Assembly: GCF_003610295.1 (NCBI RefSeq)
Contig: NZ_RAPV01000001.1
Coordinates: 1,364,001-1,428,000 of the forward strand
Direction: 5' to 3'
DNA from: Paraburkholderia sp. BL23I1N1
GTDB taxonomy: Bacteria > Pseudomonadota > Gammaproteobacteria > Burkholderiales > Burkholderiaceae
DNA: 64,000 nucleotides
Shown piece by piece: positions 873 to 23,636 of the stretch (positions are counted from its first letter, which is position 1; each line of letters begins with the position of its first letter). The translations under genes and the position numbers were made by a program. The notes under the pieces are model-generated. The model did not search any database. It was not told the DNA's origin and saw nothing but the letters and a program-made list of their open reading frames with translations.

Positions 873-1211
873 CTAACCGACGATCGCCGCAACAGCGGCG
901 GCTTCTTGCGCGAGATTCGTGTAATGCCGTTGCGCGATCGCGCGCGCGGCATCGCGCATGAGCTGCGCGTCGGTGTCATCGATCTGCAGGGCGGCGCGGT
1001 TCTTCAGACGTTCCGCGAGTCGCCCGAGGTCGGATTCCTCGGGCGTCCAGTAAGCATCGGCGAAGCGGTGGAGGGAGGCGAGTGATCCCGTGACGCTCTG
1101 GTATTGCTGGCGGCCGATCTGGCCGTCCAGCAACACCGTCATACCGGCGGCGCGCGCAATCTCGACGATATCGGTCACGGGCGCCGCCCTGAATCCGTCG
1201 GGAACGGCCAT
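873..1211 (-). CDS. Phage protein of unknown function
   Basis: A 112-residue protein starting inside the last 37 bases of the ParB-like gene, with GAGG about ten bases upstream of its ATG. The sequence looks alpha-helical, with segments rich in Ala, Leu, Arg and Glu, and ends four residues short of the next gene's start region. There is no motif that I recognise. The long overlap with the upstream gene suggests translational coupling, although a later start at Met24 is possible. Its composition is that of a real soluble protein rather than of a shadow frame. Confidence 0.6.
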   Translation of the reverse strand: MAVPDGFRAAPVTDIVEIARAAGMTVLLDGQIGRQQYQSVTGSLASLHRFADAYWTPEESDLGRLAERLKNRAALQIDDTDAQLMRDAARAIAQRHYTNLAQEAAAVAAIVG

Positions 1212-2944
1212 GCTACTTTGGCCTCGTCGCTATTGAACAGATCGGCAGGCGAAGCCCTCTTCGTCGACTTCTTCGCGGCGATCGGTTTCTTCGGCGCTTG
1301 TGCCTTCTTTGCTGCGGGGGGCTTCTTGGCGGGCGCAGCCTTTTTGCCTGCTGCCTTTGCTGGCGGCTTGGGCGCGTTGGCGGGCATCTTCTTCGCGGGT
1401 ATCGGTGTCGGCCGCTTCGGCTTCATGTCGCCTTCGACATGTTTGCGCACGAGGCCCGGGTCGATGCCACGCACGCGCGCGGTTGCTTCGAGCAGCTCGG
1501 GCTTGGCGCTCGAATAGTTCTCGGCGACCGATTCGCCGATTAGCGCGATATCCATCACCAGGCGCCCGAGCGCTTCCGAATCGTTCTTCTCGAACTCGTC
1601 GACCTTTTTCGCAAAGTCGGCTTCGCTTATCGCCTTCGAGCCCCAGTCGTAAAGCTTCGAGAGACGGCGCTGGTTCTCATTCCAGAGACGCCGATAGAAG
1701 GTGACAGCGACGATCTTCAGATCGAAATCGTCAAGGCCTGTCCCGCTGTGCTTTTCGCGAACCCGACGGAATAGCTCGCCGCGGTATGCATCGGCCGCTT
1801 TTTTCTTGGCGTTCTCCGCCGACTGGGACGGATTAGACGAGCCGGCGCTGCGCGCCTGGATGCCCTTGTCGGCGAGTGCTTTCTTCAGATCCGACTTGTG
1901 CATGACGTCGACCAGCTGCCCGTCGTACGGTGTCTCGAGCAGGGCGGCCGTCTTGACGCCTTTCGCGCCGAGGATCTGGCGGAAGGTACGCGATTTCGCG
2001 TCGTCATGGCAGCGATCATCGAGCTTCACATAGCCGCCCTGCATTGCGCTGTACTGGGTCGGGAGCACGCTTTTCGCTTCCTTTCCGCTGATGACCTTGC
2101 GGCCCGCAGCCTCGGCGTCGGCGCGTTTCTGCGCGGCCGCGGCGGCGCGCTTGGTCTCGTAGCAGGCCGGATCCGTGCAGGTATCTTTGCTCTTCACGTC
2201 TCCGAAGAGGTCGGACTGATTGCCGGTGCGCTTCGGGCACGGACCGCACGCGCCGGCCGCCGGCACCAACTCGGCATCCGACGGCTTGAATGGGGCTTGG
2301 TCGAGCCGCAGCATGTACGTGCGCTCGATATGCGCAAATGCGGCCTTCGCCGACCGCGGTTCGCCGTCGATCCACGGCGCCACGATCTCTTTGGCAGCCT
2401 TCTCCTGCAGCTCTGCAGGCATCCGAGCGATAAGCGACGCGGTCGCGACCGTCAGCTTGCCATCGAAGAACAGCTTGCGCGTGGACGCGTTGAGCACGCA
2501 CAGCTTCAGGCGCTGCGCGACATACGTCTTCGTCTGGCTGACCTCGTCGGCAATTTGCTCGAGCGTGTGGCCGCGATCGGACAGGACCTTATAGCCGTCG
2601 GCTTCTTCGAGCGGATGCAGATCCTTGCGCTGCAGGTTCTCGACGATCTGGATATGGAGCACCTCGTCGTCCGAGAGATCCCGCACGAGCACCGGAACGT
2701 CGCTCAGGCCGGCAGCGGTGGCGGCGCGGTGACGACGTTCGCCGGCGACGAGCTCGAACAGGCCGGGCTCATTGGGCCACGGGCGCACGAGCATCGGCTG
2801 CAGGACACCGTGCTTGCTAACGCTCGCTACCATCTCGGCCTGATCGGCATCGGAGAAGCGCTTGCGCGGATTGGTCGGCGACGGCTGGATCGAACAGAGC
2901 GGCATAAACTCGACGGAAGCCTCTTGTGTGGTCTGCACGGACAT
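1175..2944 (-). CDS. Orphan ParB/Spo0J-like protein with zinc motif and histone H1-like tail
   Basis: The N-terminal ParB/Srx-like domain contains the conserved GERRHRA box (residues about 68-74), followed by a helix-turn-helix region near 120-170. A CGPC pair (about 233-236) with C256 and C261 looks like a zinc site. The last 75 residues are almost only Lys, Ala and Pro, as in histone H1 tails, and should bind DNA without sequence preference. ParB proteins are DNA-sliding clamps that normally work with a ParA ATPase, and no ParA is present in the window. A strong Shine-Dalgarno AGAGGAGAA precedes the ATG. At 589 residues it is about twice the length of a plain ParB. A role in phage replication, recombination or transcription is inferred, not shown. 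Confidence 0.85.
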   Translation of the reverse strand: MSVQTTQEASVEFMPLCSIQPSPTNPRKRFSDADQAEMVASVSKHGVLQPMLVRPWPNEPGLFELVAGERRHRAATAAGLSDVPVLVRDLSDDEVLHIQIVENLQRKDLHPLEEADGYKVLSDRGHTLEQIADEVSQTKTYVAQRLKLCVLNASTRKLFFDGKLTVATASLIARMPAELQEKAAKEIVAPWIDGEPRSAKAAFAHIERTYMLRLDQAPFKPSDAELVPAAGACGPCPKRTGNQSDLFGDVKSKDTCTDPACYETKRAAAAAQKRADAEAAGRKVISGKEAKSVLPTQYSAMQGGYVKLDDRCHDDAKSRTFRQILGAKGVKTAALLETPYDGQLVDVMHKSDLKKALADKGIQARSAGSSNPSQSAENAKKKAADAYRGELFRRVREKHSGTGLDDFDLKIVAVTFYRRLWNENQRRLSKLYDWGSKAISEADFAKKVDEFEKNDSEALGRLVMDIALIGESVAENYSSAKPELLEATARVRGIDPGLVRKHVEGDMKPKRPTPIPAKKMPANAPKPPAKAAGKKAAPAKKPPAAKKAQAPKKPIAAKKSTKRASPADLFNSDEAKVAWPFPTDSGRRP

Positions 2945-5468: not shown

Positions 5469-6263
5469 TCAGTCGTACGTCACGATTTTCGTTTTTACGA
5501 CGCCGCATATGACCGCATTGTCTTGGATCTCAGTTATCCCCTCGGGCCAAGCGGGATTCAGCGCCTTTAGATAGATCCGTTCGCCTTCCGAAATTAGCTG
5601 ACGAAGAATTGGCTCCGCCTCGCCATCGACCATTACAACTATGAATTTACGGTGGTCCGGCGTCCCCTTCGGATCAACGAGCACGATCTCTCCCTCGCGG
5701 AAGGAGCGATGGTCCGCGGGGTCGTACATGCTTTCACCGCGTACGCGCAGGTAATACGACTTCTGAGAAACAGCAACCGGTGAGTCGAGCCACTGCTCGG
5801 CATCACCGTACGCAAAGTTGTCCACAATGGAATCCCAGGTTCTAGCTTGTGCCCATGAAATCAGGGGATATGTCCCCTGATGTTGAGAATCAAGCTCAGC
5901 ACTTTTTACCATCCTAGACCAGGTATTTTTACCTACGGTGGTAATAAGACCGCGTTTTTCGCCCGTGTTTGGTGCATCGCTGGCCCCAACTTTGTGCTCG
6001 GCTGCTGCCGGTGAAGCATGTGCTCCGTGGTGGGGCACGCCGATCGTCGCCTCGGAAAACCAATTTTTCATGCCGGGGAGCGCTTCGATCGCCCGTATCG
6101 TTTTTTCGGTGACAGGTCGATCGCCAGAAAGCATTTGACGCACGAAAGCGCCGTCCTTATAGCCGAGACGCTTGCCAAAGGCGGTTCGATTTCCACCGCA
6201 GAGTTTGTCGATCGCGGCTCTAAGAGCCTCGATGCGCTGTCGCGCCAGTTCACGTTCATTCAT
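5469..6263 (-). CDS. Prophage repressor, CI/LexA type (HTH plus S24 domain), apparently non-cleavable
   Basis: A 264-residue repressor. The N-terminal HTH spans about residues 15-70 (GNRTAFGKRLGYKDGAFVRQM, ending near ALPGMKNWF). The C-terminal S24 dimerisation domain carries RVRGESMYDP with the nucleophilic Ser. Two key elements differ from self-cleaving relatives: the hinge reads SWAQARTW where they have Ala-Gly (codons GCT AGA here), and the position of the catalytic Lys is Arg in ILRQLISEGE (codon CGT). It should bind the GTAGC-N4-GCTAC sites on both sides of its gene. The ATG at 6263 is chosen from domain length; there is no Shine-Dalgarno sequence, as in lambda cI. Its codon use is more AT-rich than that of neighbouring genes. 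Confidence 0.9.
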   Translation of the reverse strand: MNERELARQRIEALRAAIDKLCGGNRTAFGKRLGYKDGAFVRQMLSGDRPVTEKTIRAIEALPGMKNWFSEATIGVPHHGAHASPAAAEHKVGASDAPNTGEKRGLITTVGKNTWSRMVKSAELDSQHQGTYPLISWAQARTWDSIVDNFAYGDAEQWLDSPVAVSQKSYYLRVRGESMYDPADHRSFREGEIVLVDPKGTPDHRKFIVVMVDGEAEPILRQLISEGERIYLKALNPAWPEGITEIQDNAVICGVVKTKIVTYD

Positions 6264-6272
6264 TTTCGTAGC

Positions 6273-6325
6273 GTAGCACCAGCTACGCATAGCAAACGCT
6301 CCTTGCAACTAGTAGCGTACGCTAC
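6273..6325. promoter_or_regulatory. Right operator cluster OR (three sites)
   Basis: GTAGC-ACCA-GCTAC (6273-6286), a degenerate ATAGC-AAAC-GCTCC (6289-6302) and GTAGC-GTAC-GCTAC (6312-6325); the last lies within a perfect 20-bp palindrome, CTAGTAGCGTACGCTACTAG. The first abuts the repressor start and would control the repressor's own promoter. The last occupies the spacer of the rightward promoter. Three sites here and two on the left mirror lambda OR and OL. Confidence 0.85.
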
Positions 6326-6337: not shown

Positions 6338-6706
6338 ATGGATCTCGACCAATACCTCTCCGCGCCAGACGCGCTGACGATCTCCCAGCTTCGTAAGCGA
6401 ATGGAGGAGCTCGGCTATCCCATCAAGAGCAATGCGCAATTGAGACAGTGGCGCCACAAATATTCCGGGCGGCTGCCCAGTCCAGAGAACTGCGTCGGTC
6501 TGGAGAAGGCTACCGATGGCAAGGTGCGGCGCGAGGACAGCAGACCCGAAGACTGGTGGAAGATCTGGCCGGAGCTGAATGGGTCTGCCGAGTCGCAGGT
6601 TGAGTCCGCTCGATCCGTCGACGATGCGCAGCCGCCTACGGGCGGCCGGTCCGAGCGGCGAGCAAAGGGTAAGGCATCGAGGCGAATTTCGAAGGAGGGC
6701 GTCTGA
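6338..6706 (+). CDS. Cro/YdaS-like DNA-binding regulator
   Basis: A 122-residue protein divergent from the repressor gene and first in the rightward operon. The N-terminal 75 residues contain a helix-turn-helix (LTISQLRKRMEELGYPIKS, then QLRQWRHKYSGRLPSPENC) of the YdaS/Cro type seen next to repressors in Burkholderia prophages; SPENCVGLEKAT and DWWKIWPEL are typical. The rest is a basic low-complexity tail. It probably competes with the repressor for the shared operators to favour lytic growth. There is no Shine-Dalgarno sequence, and the promoter geometry predicts a leaderless mRNA. Confidence 0.8.
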   Translation: MDLDQYLSAPDALTISQLRKRMEELGYPIKSNAQLRQWRHKYSGRLPSPENCVGLEKATDGKVRREDSRPEDWWKIWPELNGSAESQVESARSVDDAQPPTGGRSERRAKGKASRRISKEGV

Positions 6707-6707
6707 C

Positions 6708-7223
6708 ATGCGGCGCATCCGATCGATGTTGGTGCCCGTGCGCGGCCAGATCCGCAAGCGTGCCGAACGCGCACCGTGTCCTGAAATGGCCGCATGGCTG
6801 CCGTGGATTCGGCCACCCGCTGCGGATATCGGTCGGTTTCGCGAGCAGATGGCGGCGCATGTGCACCGCGATGCCGGCCTGGAAACGCTCCGCGCGGAAA
6901 CCGGCTCCGATTGGGACGATTTATTGGCACAGCGCCGGCGAGAGGCGCAACGACTTTCGGATGTGGGACTTGAACGGCCTACGCTTTTCGACGGCGTGCG
7001 CGTGCCCGCTCTTAAGGCCGGCGAGGTAATTCGCGCAGTGACTAGCGATGCGGCTGCGTCGTGCCCGTTGTCTCGATTTGCGTCCAGTCGTCCAGAGCGG
7101 CCGGATGAATCACATAGGGAAGCGAGTCCCAGAGTTTCCATCCTGTCGTTTGCGATCGGACGGCTTCGGCGGCTTTTTCGGCGGTGCGCCAGCCCAAATC
7201 GAGAACGACGGGCTGAACGATGA
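6708..7223 (+). CDS. Miniature, rearranged portal-like protein
   Basis: The gene starts one base after the Cro-like stop with a near-perfect Shine-Dalgarno AAGGAGG. Three stretches resemble the full portal protein at 21984-23636. EMAAWLPWIRPPAADIGRFR matches portal residues about 50-70 (EMGAWLPWIRSPDAE). LETLRAETGSDWDDLLAQR matches the portal C-terminus (LTTLKQEAAEQGLDWEEVI). LERPTLFDGVRVPALKAGE matches a central portal segment (DERPAMFNGVRVPALAPGE). The third comes after the second, so the portal order is permuted and most of the protein is missing. Similarity ends near 7065; the remaining frame runs across an opposing gene and may be unselected. It could be a decaying remnant, or a small protein that interferes with portal assembly. 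Confidence 0.6.
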   Translation: MRRIRSMLVPVRGQIRKRAERAPCPEMAAWLPWIRPPAADIGRFREQMAAHVHRDAGLETLRAETGSDWDDLLAQRRREAQRLSDVGLERPTLFDGVRVPALKAGEVIRAVTSDAAASCPLSRFASSRPERPDESHREASPRVSILSFAIGRLRRLFRRCASPNRERRAER

Positions 7224-7356
7224 TTTCGCCGCTGCTTGCCCGGCTGAACGTCTCGTACGTGAGAAACCACGCTGGACGTCCATCCACATCCGGCCGAATG
7301 GTCATGGCACCGAAGGGCGATTTGTAGAGGTAGAAAAAGTACGTGTTTGCTTCCAT
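7042..7356 (-). CDS. Phage protein of unknown function, opposite to its operon
   Basis: A 104-residue protein. The ATG at 7356 has AAAGGGG nine bases upstream. The sequence is rich in aromatic residues (NTYFFYLYKSPFG, RPAWFLTYETF) and looks like a compact alpha/beta protein. It is transcribed against the rightward early operon and overlaps the 3' part of the mini-portal gene by about 180 bases, so expression from one side may interfere with the other. Opposite orientation suggests an independently expressed lysogen gene (moron). Function unknown. Confidence 0.65.
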   Translation of the reverse strand: MEANTYFFYLYKSPFGAMTIRPDVDGRPAWFLTYETFSRASSGEIIVQPVVLDLGWRTAEKAAEAVRSQTTGWKLWDSLPYVIHPAALDDWTQIETTGTTQPHR

Positions 7357-7450
7357 GAGGGTTCCCCTTTGTTGTGAAGCGGTGCGTGTGGAAGCCACCG
7401 ATTCTAAACGGGGTGTGAACCCTCACCCTTACGGCGCGGAGATGAGCCGA

Positions 7451-21714: not shown

Positions 21715-21984
21715 ATGGCCACTACCGATCTCAGCTCGCCGTACTACGGCATGAGCGATGCGCAGCTGCAGGCCGCGCTCGTCTCGGCGCAGCAGGCCTT
21801 GATCGATCTGCGGACGGGAAAGAAACTCGTCTCCGTTTCGTACGCACAGGGCGGCGGCGCGCGCAGCGCTACCTTCCAGCAAACCGACATGGCGAACCTG
21901 CGCATGCTGATCGCGGAACTGCAGCAGGCACTCAACCCGGGCGTGTGCATTAATCGCCGCCGCTACATCACGCCGGTGTTTTGA
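21715..21984 (+). CDS. Head-tail joining protein, gpW-like
   Basis: An 89-residue protein starting MATTDLSSPYYGMSDAQLQA. A helix (QLQAALVSAQQALIDLRTGK), a short hairpin (KLVSVSYAQGGGARSATFQQ) and a second helix (MANLRMLIAELQQAL) are the gpW fold. It sits between terminase and portal exactly as in lambda. It plugs the filled head before tail attachment. The TGA overlaps the portal ATG. Confidence 0.85.
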   Translation: MATTDLSSPYYGMSDAQLQAALVSAQQALIDLRTGKKLVSVSYAQGGGARSATFQQTDMANLRMLIAELQQALNPGVCINRRRYITPVF

Positions 21985-23636
21985 TGGCCAAAGAGATCAC
22001 GCTGGTTGACGCGGGCGGCAATCCGATCCGCCGCGCGCGTGCCGACTATCCGAACGGGATGCCTCTACGGAGTCAGGTTGGTGCCTCGTTTTTCCCGTAT
22101 CAGGCTGCGGAATGGCAGACGCAGGAGATGGGGGCGTGGCTGCCGTGGATCCGCTCGCCCGACGCCGAGATTACCCAGTTCCGCGATCGGATGGTGGCGC
22201 GCTCGCGCGATCAGGTTCGCAATGACGGTCGCTCGAGCGGCGGTATCACACGGATCCTCGACAGTGCGATCGGCGCTTCGCTGCGCCTGTCCGCTGCGCC
22301 TGACTATCGCGCATTGCGCCTCATCAGCGGGGCGAACTTCGATATCCAGTGGGCGAAGGAATTCGCGAGCGCCGTTGAGGCACGCTGGCGCATGTTCTCG
22401 AACGACCTGGACCGTTACAACGACGTGTCGAGGCAGCTCACCGTGTCGCAGCAGCTGCGTCTCGCGCTGCGTCACAAGCTGATCGACGGAGAGAATCTCG
22501 TCGTCAACTACTGGAAGCCCGAACGCGTTGGCCGCGGCGGCGCGCATTACGCGACCTGCTTTCTGGTTGTGGATCCGGACCGCCTGTCGAATCCCATGCA
22601 GATGTTGGACACGAAGCACCTGCGTGGTGGGGTCGAGGTCGACGACGACGGCGTACCGCTCGCATATCACATTCGCAAGGCGCACCAGAACGACTGGTAC
22701 AACGCTGTCGAGAGCATGGAGTGGGAGCGCGTCGAGCGGGAAGACGATGACGGCTGGCGGCGCGTGATTCATGACTATGACCGGGATCGCGCAGGACAGA
22801 ACCGCGGCATCGGCGTATTCATTCCAGTGCTCGCGCACGCGAAGATGCTCGCGCGTTACTACGGCATCGAGCTGCAGGCGGCGGCCCTCGCCGCATCGAT
22901 CGGCACATACGTCACAAGCCCGTACGACCCGTCAGAAGTGCAGGATGCGCTCGGCGGCGACCAGGAGCTCAAGTTCTACCAGAGTCTGCGAAAAGACTGG
23001 AACGACGAGCGTCCGGCGATGTTCAACGGCGTGCGCGTGCCAGCGCTGGCGCCCGGCGAAAAAATCGAGGCGGTCGCGTCCGACCATCCGCACAACGGCT
23101 TCACCGAGTTCGTGCACGAGATGCAGGGATGTGTCGCTTCCGCGCTTGGCGTCCCGATTGAACAGGTGACGCAGGACTGGTCACGCAGCAACTACTCGAA
23201 CATGCGCGGCTCAATGCTCGAGGGATGGAAGACGTTGATCCGCCGGCGGCTCGATTTTTCCGCGGGCACCGCGACGCCGATGTATGCGGTATGGCTTCGC
23301 GAGTCGATGGAGAACGACGAACTGCCGTTGCCGAAGGGCGCGCCCGACTTCCTGGAGGCTGCAACCGCCTACGCTGCCTGTTCGTGGCTCGGGCCCGCGC
23401 GTGGCTGGGTCGATCCGGTCAAGGAACCGCAGGGTTCCATTCTCAAGATGGACGCCGCGCTCACAACGCTCAAGCAGGAAGCCGCCGAGCAAGGCCTCGA
23501 TTGGGAAGAAGTGATCGACCAGCGTCAGATCGAAATCGAGGCTTTCAAGAAACGCGGCATGCCTCTGCCCGAGTGGGGCGGAGGGGAACTTGCTTCGCGC
23601 ACCGACGAACCTCCCGAACAGCCGAAGGCTGCATGA
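21984..23636 (+). CDS. Portal protein (lambda gpB family)
   Basis: A 550-residue protein with the lambda-family signature: WLPWIRSPDAE near the N-terminus, NDGRSSGGITRILDSAIGAS, LVVDPDRLSNPMQ, FNGVRVPALAPGEKIE, GVPIEQVTQDWSRSNYS and the C-terminal RGWVDPVKEP and DWEEVIDQRQIEIEAF. It forms the dodecameric ring through which DNA enters and leaves. A shorter rearranged relative lies at 6708. The stop overlaps the protease start by four bases. Confidence 0.93.
   Translation: MAKEITLVDAGGNPIRRARADYPNGMPLRSQVGASFFPYQAAEWQTQEMGAWLPWIRSPDAEITQFRDRMVARSRDQVRNDGRSSGGITRILDSAIGASLRLSAAPDYRALRLISGANFDIQWAKEFASAVEARWRMFSNDLDRYNDVSRQLTVSQQLRLALRHKLIDGENLVVNYWKPERVGRGGAHYATCFLVVDPDRLSNPMQMLDTKHLRGGVEVDDDGVPLAYHIRKAHQNDWYNAVESMEWERVEREDDDGWRRVIHDYDRDRAGQNRGIGVFIPVLAHAKMLARYYGIELQAAALAASIGTYVTSPYDPSEVQDALGGDQELKFYQSLRKDWNDERPAMFNGVRVPALAPGEKIEAVASDHPHNGFTEFVHEMQGCVASALGVPIEQVTQDWSRSNYSNMRGSMLEGWKTLIRRRLDFSAGTATPMYAVWLRESMENDELPLPKGAPDFLEAATAYAACSWLGPARGWVDPVKEPQGSILKMDAALTTLKQEAAEQGLDWEEVIDQRQIEIEAFKKRGMPLPEWGGGELASRTDEPPEQPKAA

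Follow-up and report, generated by a model that had tools for sequence, protein, structure and literature searches.

What is a gene assembled from rearranged pieces of a phage portal protein doing directly behind the Cro-like gene of a prophage? The question is raised by a 64,000-nucleotide stretch (hereafter, the window) of the 9.1 Mb genome of Paraburkholderia sp. BL23I1N1 (contig NZ_RAPV01000001.1, positions 1,364,001 to 1,428,000 of the forward strand), in which a prophage carries, on the forward strand, an open reading frame (ORF) of 171 amino acids at 6708..7223. A preliminary description of this DNA presented the ORF as a miniature portal with permuted segments that could be either a dominant-negative protein directed against related phages or a recombination relic, and placed its end at 7065. 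The start of the gene is as described there, with an ATG at 6708 and a Shine-Dalgarno sequence, AAGGAGGG (6692-6699, forward strand), that overlaps the end of the adjoining Cro-like gene (6338-6706); the frame, however, stays open to 7223, that is, for 158 nt beyond the proposed end.

Origin of the permuted protein

In a blastp comparison, three separate high-scoring segment pairs (HSPs) connect the ORF product to the phage's own portal, a lambda-family protein (21981..23636, forward strand; Phage_portal_2, E 7.8e-90) that represents the source type of the modules. Residues 9-50 match portal residues 27-73 (the N segment; 43% identity, E 1e-8), residues 33-91 match 469-530 (C; 29%, E 7e-7), and residues 89-114 match 343-368 (central, or M; 69%, E 4e-8); with composition-based statistics, the respective E-values are 1e-8, 9e-6 and 2e-8. 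The order along the ORF is thus N-terminal, C-terminal, central, unlike that in the portal and as initially proposed; the N and C HSPs overlap in the query, so that the border between these two segments is not sharp. Profiles from 84 portals detect N, M and C2 (the second of two pieces, C1 and C2, of the C segment) in the ORF with single-sequence E-values of 4e-10 for N, 2e-9 for C2 and 5e-5 for M. When these profiles were calibrated on 1900 shuffled sequences at E<=0.02, N made 69 calls, C2 65, M 19 and C1 10, with 38 expected for each; the excess for N and C2 implies that weak calls of these two modules are somewhat over-counted.

Because the ORF is arginine-rich, a chance similarity to the portal has to be considered, but its probability appears negligible. 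None of 2000 shuffles reaches 35 bits (the best scores 28.9); among the 596 stop-to-stop frames of at least 60 amino acids outside the portal, this ORF included, it alone falls below E 1e-4 (runner-up, 6e-4); and the homologues described below keep the modules. We therefore consider it confirmed, at the level of sequence comparison, that the ORF encodes a portal-derived, permuted protein, the origin of which lies in a structural protein of the same virus group. The identity to the portal at the DNA level is moderate, as the preliminary description held, at 72% over 76 nt for N and 82% over 38 nt for M, which rules out a recent duplication; the C piece has no comparable DNA match to the phage's own portal.

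The portal-derived content is limited to the three segments and does not extend to the first 18 amino acids, MRRIRSMLVPVRGQIRKR (6708..6761), which form a conserved, family-specific basic header with a net charge of +7. Further along the forward strand follow the N module (residues 25-50; 6780..6857; portal ~48-73), the C1 piece RDAGLETLRAE (residues 54-64; 6867..6899; portal ~490-500), the C2 module (residues 68-88; 6909..6971; portal ~507-527), the M module (residues 89-114; 6972..7049; portal 343-368) and a basic tail (residues 112-171; 7041..7220; net charge +7). In this copy, C1 is seen by alignment alone, the short C1 profile making no call. Portal-matching residues amount to ~85 of the 551 in the portal. 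The ORF has no Pfam match (0 families at E<=1), so that the full-length portal domain PF05136 was not detected, and only a weak match to a portal family in PHROGs (phrog_537, E 1.9e-4); both profiles and tiles (see below) give the order N-C2-M, without the native segment order, stem helices and tunnel loop of a portal.

The modules can be placed on a known structure through the alignment of the portal with lambda gpB (8k38). Under the domain limits stated in the available text of PMC10721106, N belongs to the wing and C1 and C2 to the crown, whereas M, equivalent to gpB 320-345, belongs to the clip, with its last three residues in the stem. The strand at which M begins corresponds to gpB 320-324, and that text puts the docking of the C-arm of the lambda connector gpW at these residues; there, they are called wing, yet the clip limits given are 280-342. 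The family members thus appear to present pieces of the wing, clip and crown without the stem helices and tunnel loop. The notion of a miniature portal is wrong in this respect, and the predicted model has no globular fold: AlphaFold2, with a shallow input of 12 rows that limits this result, gives a mean predicted local distance difference test score (pLDDT) of 60 and a predicted template modelling score of 0.23, with helices at residues 25-30, 37-55, 58-86 and 145-160 (block pLDDT 58-88 for the second and third), a strand pair in the header and an unstructured M module. A PDB search with this model found no related structure (2 matches, best E 8.7). Beyond the shallow model, the shuffled module order argues against a single fold, and the protein rather resembles a series of portal motifs flanked by two basic ends.

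A family drawing on three portal regions

Homologues were sought in several collections. A search of 5.8 billion proteins, which scored the best ~8,000 candidates sharing most words, returned 4 matches with the single sequence (E<=1) and then, with growing alignments, 6 (E<=1) and 9 (E<=10); in all, 10 distinct proteins (P0001-P0010) were found among the candidates scored. The single-sequence search of 144 genomes of the genus detected header-type proteins in three besides the own one (G008, G101 and G142), a profile search combined with reading of the genomic slot added G028, G053 and G072, as well as G225 from another genus of the same bacterial family, and the virus contigs G483 and G484 contributed two more members. 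After merging of duplicates (P0003 with G008, P0005 with G142, P0007 with G028), the family comprises 15 distinct proteins of the header type plus 2 in which another carrier holds the modules; its known hosts, the five remaining P entries and G483/G484 set aside, are Paraburkholderia and the one other genus. No relative was found with the single sequence in genome contigs and virus contigs, or in GenBank phages and plasmids. Broader scans mostly met longer frames: of the 59 loci found in virus contigs with alignment A2, three are members, and the 46 inspected among the other 56 have 501-656 codons, a portal size; at the order level 7 of 300 genomes matched, the own genome included, the six others in frames of 532-638 codons. 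A header-DNA pattern occurs in 3 of the 144 genus genomes and, among 398 genomes of the family, in the own genome only. Genome scans miss divergent copies (G053, G072 and G225 where searched), so that these member counts are lower bounds.

To delineate the portal regions represented in the family, the portal was cut into 88 overlapping 24-residue tiles, and a profile of each was searched against the 17 proteins. Tiles with matches at E<=1e-3 start at 31-61, 337-355 and 475-517, defining three regions, portal residues ~46-74, 337-366 and 481-530; in addition, three tiles at 265-277 (residues 265-300) have one weak match each (E 4e-4 to 9e-4). The remaining 67 tiles, among them those for the stem helices, the tunnel loop and the greater part of the wing, match none of the 17 proteins, and among 340 shuffled sequences single tiles matched 0-2 times. 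The crown piece was matched in 16 of the 17 proteins. A detection bias toward conserved parts of the portal is not supported, the six tiles checked from the matching regions ranking 13-61 of 88 in information.

The order and number of modules vary, from one to four or five per protein. C2 precedes M, in reversal of the portal order, in all ten proteins in which both are called. Among these, G101 has a weak additional C2 call behind M (E 9e-3) and P0009 a weak additional M call ahead of C2 (E 8e-3); the M call in P0002 is itself weak (1e-2). N stands ahead of C2 in seven proteins (the window's copy, G008, G101, G028, P0001, P0002 and P0008) and behind M in two (P0006 and P0009); a weak N call inside the header of G225 (E 5e-3) was discounted. 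The permuted order, conservation of which had been named as support for function, is thus kept for C2 and M but not for the position of N or the number of modules. By eye, P0001, P0002, P0003, G053 and G072 have additional C1-like pieces behind M, and in G028 an M-like stretch separates C1 from C2; no more than some of these are also called by the profiles.

The comparison of non-synonymous and synonymous change, likewise suggested in the preliminary description, yields ratios (pN/pS) below 1: 0-0.20 in the header (ten pairs, five genes), 0.48-0.53 in the N block (three pairs), 0.41 in C2-M of G483/G484 and 0.30 in header-C2-M of G053/G072, with C2 alone at 0-0.75 (36 pairs, nine genes, many saturated at synonymous sites). 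The pooled pairs window/G008, G053/G072 and G483/G484 have a pS of 0.32 and a pN of 0.12 (Fisher p 1e-7, rounded counts), values that come from three pairs with short blocks, some saturated at synonymous sites; without the header and G053/G072, the modules give p 8e-4. Judged by these ratios, the header and the modules are under purifying selection. The lack of constraint on the frame that is expected of a relic or pseudogene was not seen, and the sequence comparisons show a conserved family of small proteins, composed of a basic header, portal modules and a basic tail, that is under selection as protein.

Of the 21 loci in which the region behind the Cro-like gene was read, 20 belong to genomes or records that contain such a portal (in G101, the portal is on another contig and the same phage is assumed) and one comes from G483, in the fragment of which no portal was found. 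The gene is present in 10 of these loci, G019 has a 62-residue remnant, six have the Cro-like gene followed by something else, and four (G026, G082, G017 and G085) lack a Cro-like gene in the slice read. All ten copies with context lie on the strand of the Cro-type gene, seven directly after it and three after one more gene. An alternative occupant of the slot, in L146, L155, L156, L158 and L037, is a protein of 118-120 amino acids that by eye is hydrophobic and membrane-like; the L037 copy separates the Cro-like gene from the portal-module gene. A second slot gene, recognizable by an MPNIS head and a GLARVIKD tail, occurs with or without portal modules in the middle (L082, minus strand, ~10389; P0009, P0010, P0006). 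It carries modules in P0009 and P0010, neither of which has a Pfam match, and no called modules in G028; P0006 is a fusion of the header and C2-M-N with the tail of this second gene.

This variability bears on a non-adaptive origin, in which portal fragments were caught behind a strong start site and shuffled among neighbours, the ORFs being by-products. A highly variable slot that in some loci lacks the gene, modules in a second carrier and in one fusion, and tail residues without a constraint of their own (see below) all fit this explanation. It does not account for the same three regions being used throughout, the C2-M order being kept, pN/pS being below 1 and the same frame leading into the tail at each of the 11 loci, not all of them independent. 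We consider such an origin unlikely, and the recombination relic of the preliminary description is disfavoured on the same evidence.

Basic ends, gene X and candidate functions

The tail is encoded antisense to a convergent gene, X (7042..7356, minus strand; 104 amino acids). In ten members and the remnant of G019, the ORF enters the antisense strand of gene X with an identical frame relation throughout (11 of 11), for which the chance would be 2e-5 if the loci were independent and, X genes falling into a few homologous groups, is perhaps ~1e-3 by our estimate. Among seven pairs compared over the overlap, the third codon position of X is clearly the most variable in two (changes at positions 1, 2 and 3 of 24, 12 and 52 in G008/G072 and of 22, 17 and 33 in G484/G142), leads more weakly in four, one of them tied with position 1, and lies just under position 1 in G053/G225 (14, 5, 13). 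In most pairs, the changes lean to third positions of X, so that X is the constrained protein in the overlap and the residues of the tail look free; selection on the amino acids of the tail was not seen in this comparison. Averaged per residue, the net charge of the tail is 0.135, which exceeds that of the two alternative antisense frames (0.073 and 0.047), but 4 of 10 loci have an alternative frame that is more basic. What is conserved in the tail is the frame and the basic character.

Gene X is preceded by a leader (7357..7436, minus strand) with a conserved CCCGTTTAGAATC and an inverted repeat, GGTGAGGGTTC...GAACCCTCATG. Across the loci, the leader is recognized by a conserved TTTAGAAT together with an inverted repeat located around the initiation codon, a pattern found in 10 of 10 loci with the portal-module gene and in 2 of 11 without it, four of these 11 being the slices with no visible Cro-like gene. 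The gene itself differs between prophages, encoding small, mostly acidic proteins of several groups (window, 7042-7436, minus strand; L035, L037, L039, L074, L160, L082, L149, L151, L159), and its transcript would be antisense to the portal-module gene.

The two basic ends invite comparison with regulators. The lambda N-like early antiterminators are small proteins made early, encoded near cro and basic in their N-terminal segment, and the protein described here shares the small size, the basic N-terminal segment and the location. It might accordingly be a regulator with RNA- or DNA-binding ends, the portal pieces being filler or a timing sensor of portal partners. The charge distribution (+4 to +8 in the header, +3 to +9 in the tail and -3 to +3 in the modules of the 10 copies with DNA), the Cro-adjacent position and an antisense gene X with its own leader, which could couple expression, are compatible with such a role. 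However, the ORF matches no antiterminator or other regulator family in Pfam or PHROGs, the portal modules have no counterpart in the antiterminators, and the selection on these modules would be left unexplained; we regard this role as distinctly improbable.

Our tentative preference, held with less than even confidence, is that the gene encodes a mimic of portal motifs that competes for the partners of the portal. Given the variable module order and the absence of a predicted fold, the modules would act as linear motifs. Judging from its position in the Cro operon, the protein would be produced early, before the late genes of the phage itself, and could bind those proteins of a co-infecting or co-induced relative that normally contact the portal monomer, namely its connector, terminase, scaffold or capsid protein. 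Binding would compete with, or poison, the incorporation of the portal, and the basic ends may anchor the protein to nucleic acid, the membrane or acidic partners. Shuffling would let the mimicry change as immunity regions are exchanged. In favour of a mimic are the recurrence of the three portal regions across the 17 proteins, the fixed C2-M order, the purifying selection, the wing and crown assignments of N and C, the start of M at the docking strand of the gpW C-arm, the lack of a globular fold in the model and the position behind a Cro-type gene in all ten copies with context. The dominant-negative action on related phages that was originally suggested is possible under this reading.

Viral structural proteins turned against related viruses have precedents in Fv1 and enJS56A1, capsid-derived restriction factors that comprise the complete or almost complete protein with its parts in native order. 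The portal-module proteins would similarly direct part of a structural protein against relatives but, unlike these factors, consist of short, shuffled pieces of three domains. They resemble the lambda-family portals (PF05136; lambda gpB) in three segments homologous to the wing N-terminus, a clip strand and a crown helix, and differ from them in being short, permuted, devoid of the stem helices and tunnel loop, and encoded beside Cro. No portal-derived small protein or inhibitor was found in the literature, among open-licence texts judged on titles and abstract openings.

Several observations weigh against the mimic. Its own portal ranks 5th for N and 8th for M among the 84 portals compared with the modules of the window but 77th for C2, an unexpected result if that portal is the one imitated. 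The similarity of N and M to the clade of the phage's own portal means that timing or affinity would have to prevent self-interference. The gene is dispensable, given the loci with another occupant or a remnant in the slot, and one member, G142, has the N module alone. The shallowness of the AlphaFold2 input and the few, short and partly saturated pairs behind the pooled pN/pS count here as well, and G483/G484 by itself is weak, with 5 synonymous and 6 non-synonymous changes.

The modules could also serve against the host. Bacterial defences such as SpbK and Avs4 read portal surfaces, the clip included (PMC12847820, available text), and an anti-defence decoy would present portal epitopes that occupy a host sensor of portal monomers without triggering it, so that the real portal is later unseen; the known systems are sensors, whereas the protein described here is a proposed mimic. 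Such a decoy would be consistent with M being a clip strand and N coming from the wing. An arms race would fit the divergence of the small proteins, ten of which are 31-49% identical to that of the window, compared to 82-97% for the portals of five other such phages (G008, G484, G028, G142 and G101; G482, a sixth record, is the viral entry for G142, and no portal was found in the G483 fragment). The known sensors, however, read folded clip and stem surfaces, whereas here the stem is absent and no fold is predicted, and the crown piece is not among the sensor contacts named in the available text of PMC12847820. We find a decoy of this kind rather unlikely, though a serious rival to the dominant-negative reading.

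On a broader reading that covers both the mimic and the decoy, the family might represent a new class of phage effectors, namely early strings of interchangeable linear motifs taken from the class of portal that the phage itself uses, which are reshuffled between immunity types, act as decoys against the assembly of competitors or a host portal sensor, and have gained a basic tail by overprinting a convergent gene; this generalization is plausible but somewhat less likely than not. If true, it would mean that phages turn pieces of their own structural proteins into modular decoys that evolve by shuffling of short motifs rather than whole domains, and would provide a gene with a C-terminus overprinted on its convergent neighbour. 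It would also single out three portal surfaces as important to partners or sensors and offer ready-made probes for portal assembly and portal-sensing immunity.

Surroundings of the gene

Upstream, the minus strand encodes an S24-type CI-like repressor (5469..~6263; Peptidase_S24, E 2.9e-19; phrog_4 transcriptional repressor, 9.5e-21), for which we chose the start MNERELARQ at 6263, the listed ORF beginning with TTG at 6308. The YdaS/Cro-like gene on the forward strand matches phrog_35 (transcriptional repressor, 3.7e-12) and, at E 5.5e-6 and 26.6 bits, under the 30-bit cutoff, YdaS_toxin (PF15943). A promoter scan found one site upstream of this gene, which is at chance level (1 found, 0.6 expected), and a terminator scan found 5 terminator-like sites compared to 2.3 expected, none of them within 6708-7356. 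An ORF of 589 amino acids (1175-2944, minus strand) looks ParB-like by eye.

The TGA stop of the Cro-like gene (6704-6706) is separated from the ATG at 6708 by a single base, and the Shine-Dalgarno sequence together with this junction, AAGGAGGGCGTCTGAC (6692..6707, forward strand), is closely similar in the relatives. A junction of this type, AGGAGGGCGYCTGA, combining the Shine-Dalgarno sequence with the stop of the upstream gene, is near-identical at gene borders of these prophages, in the window at 6692-6707 and in L082 at both 10389 and 9630 on the minus strand; it may be a site of cassette exchange.
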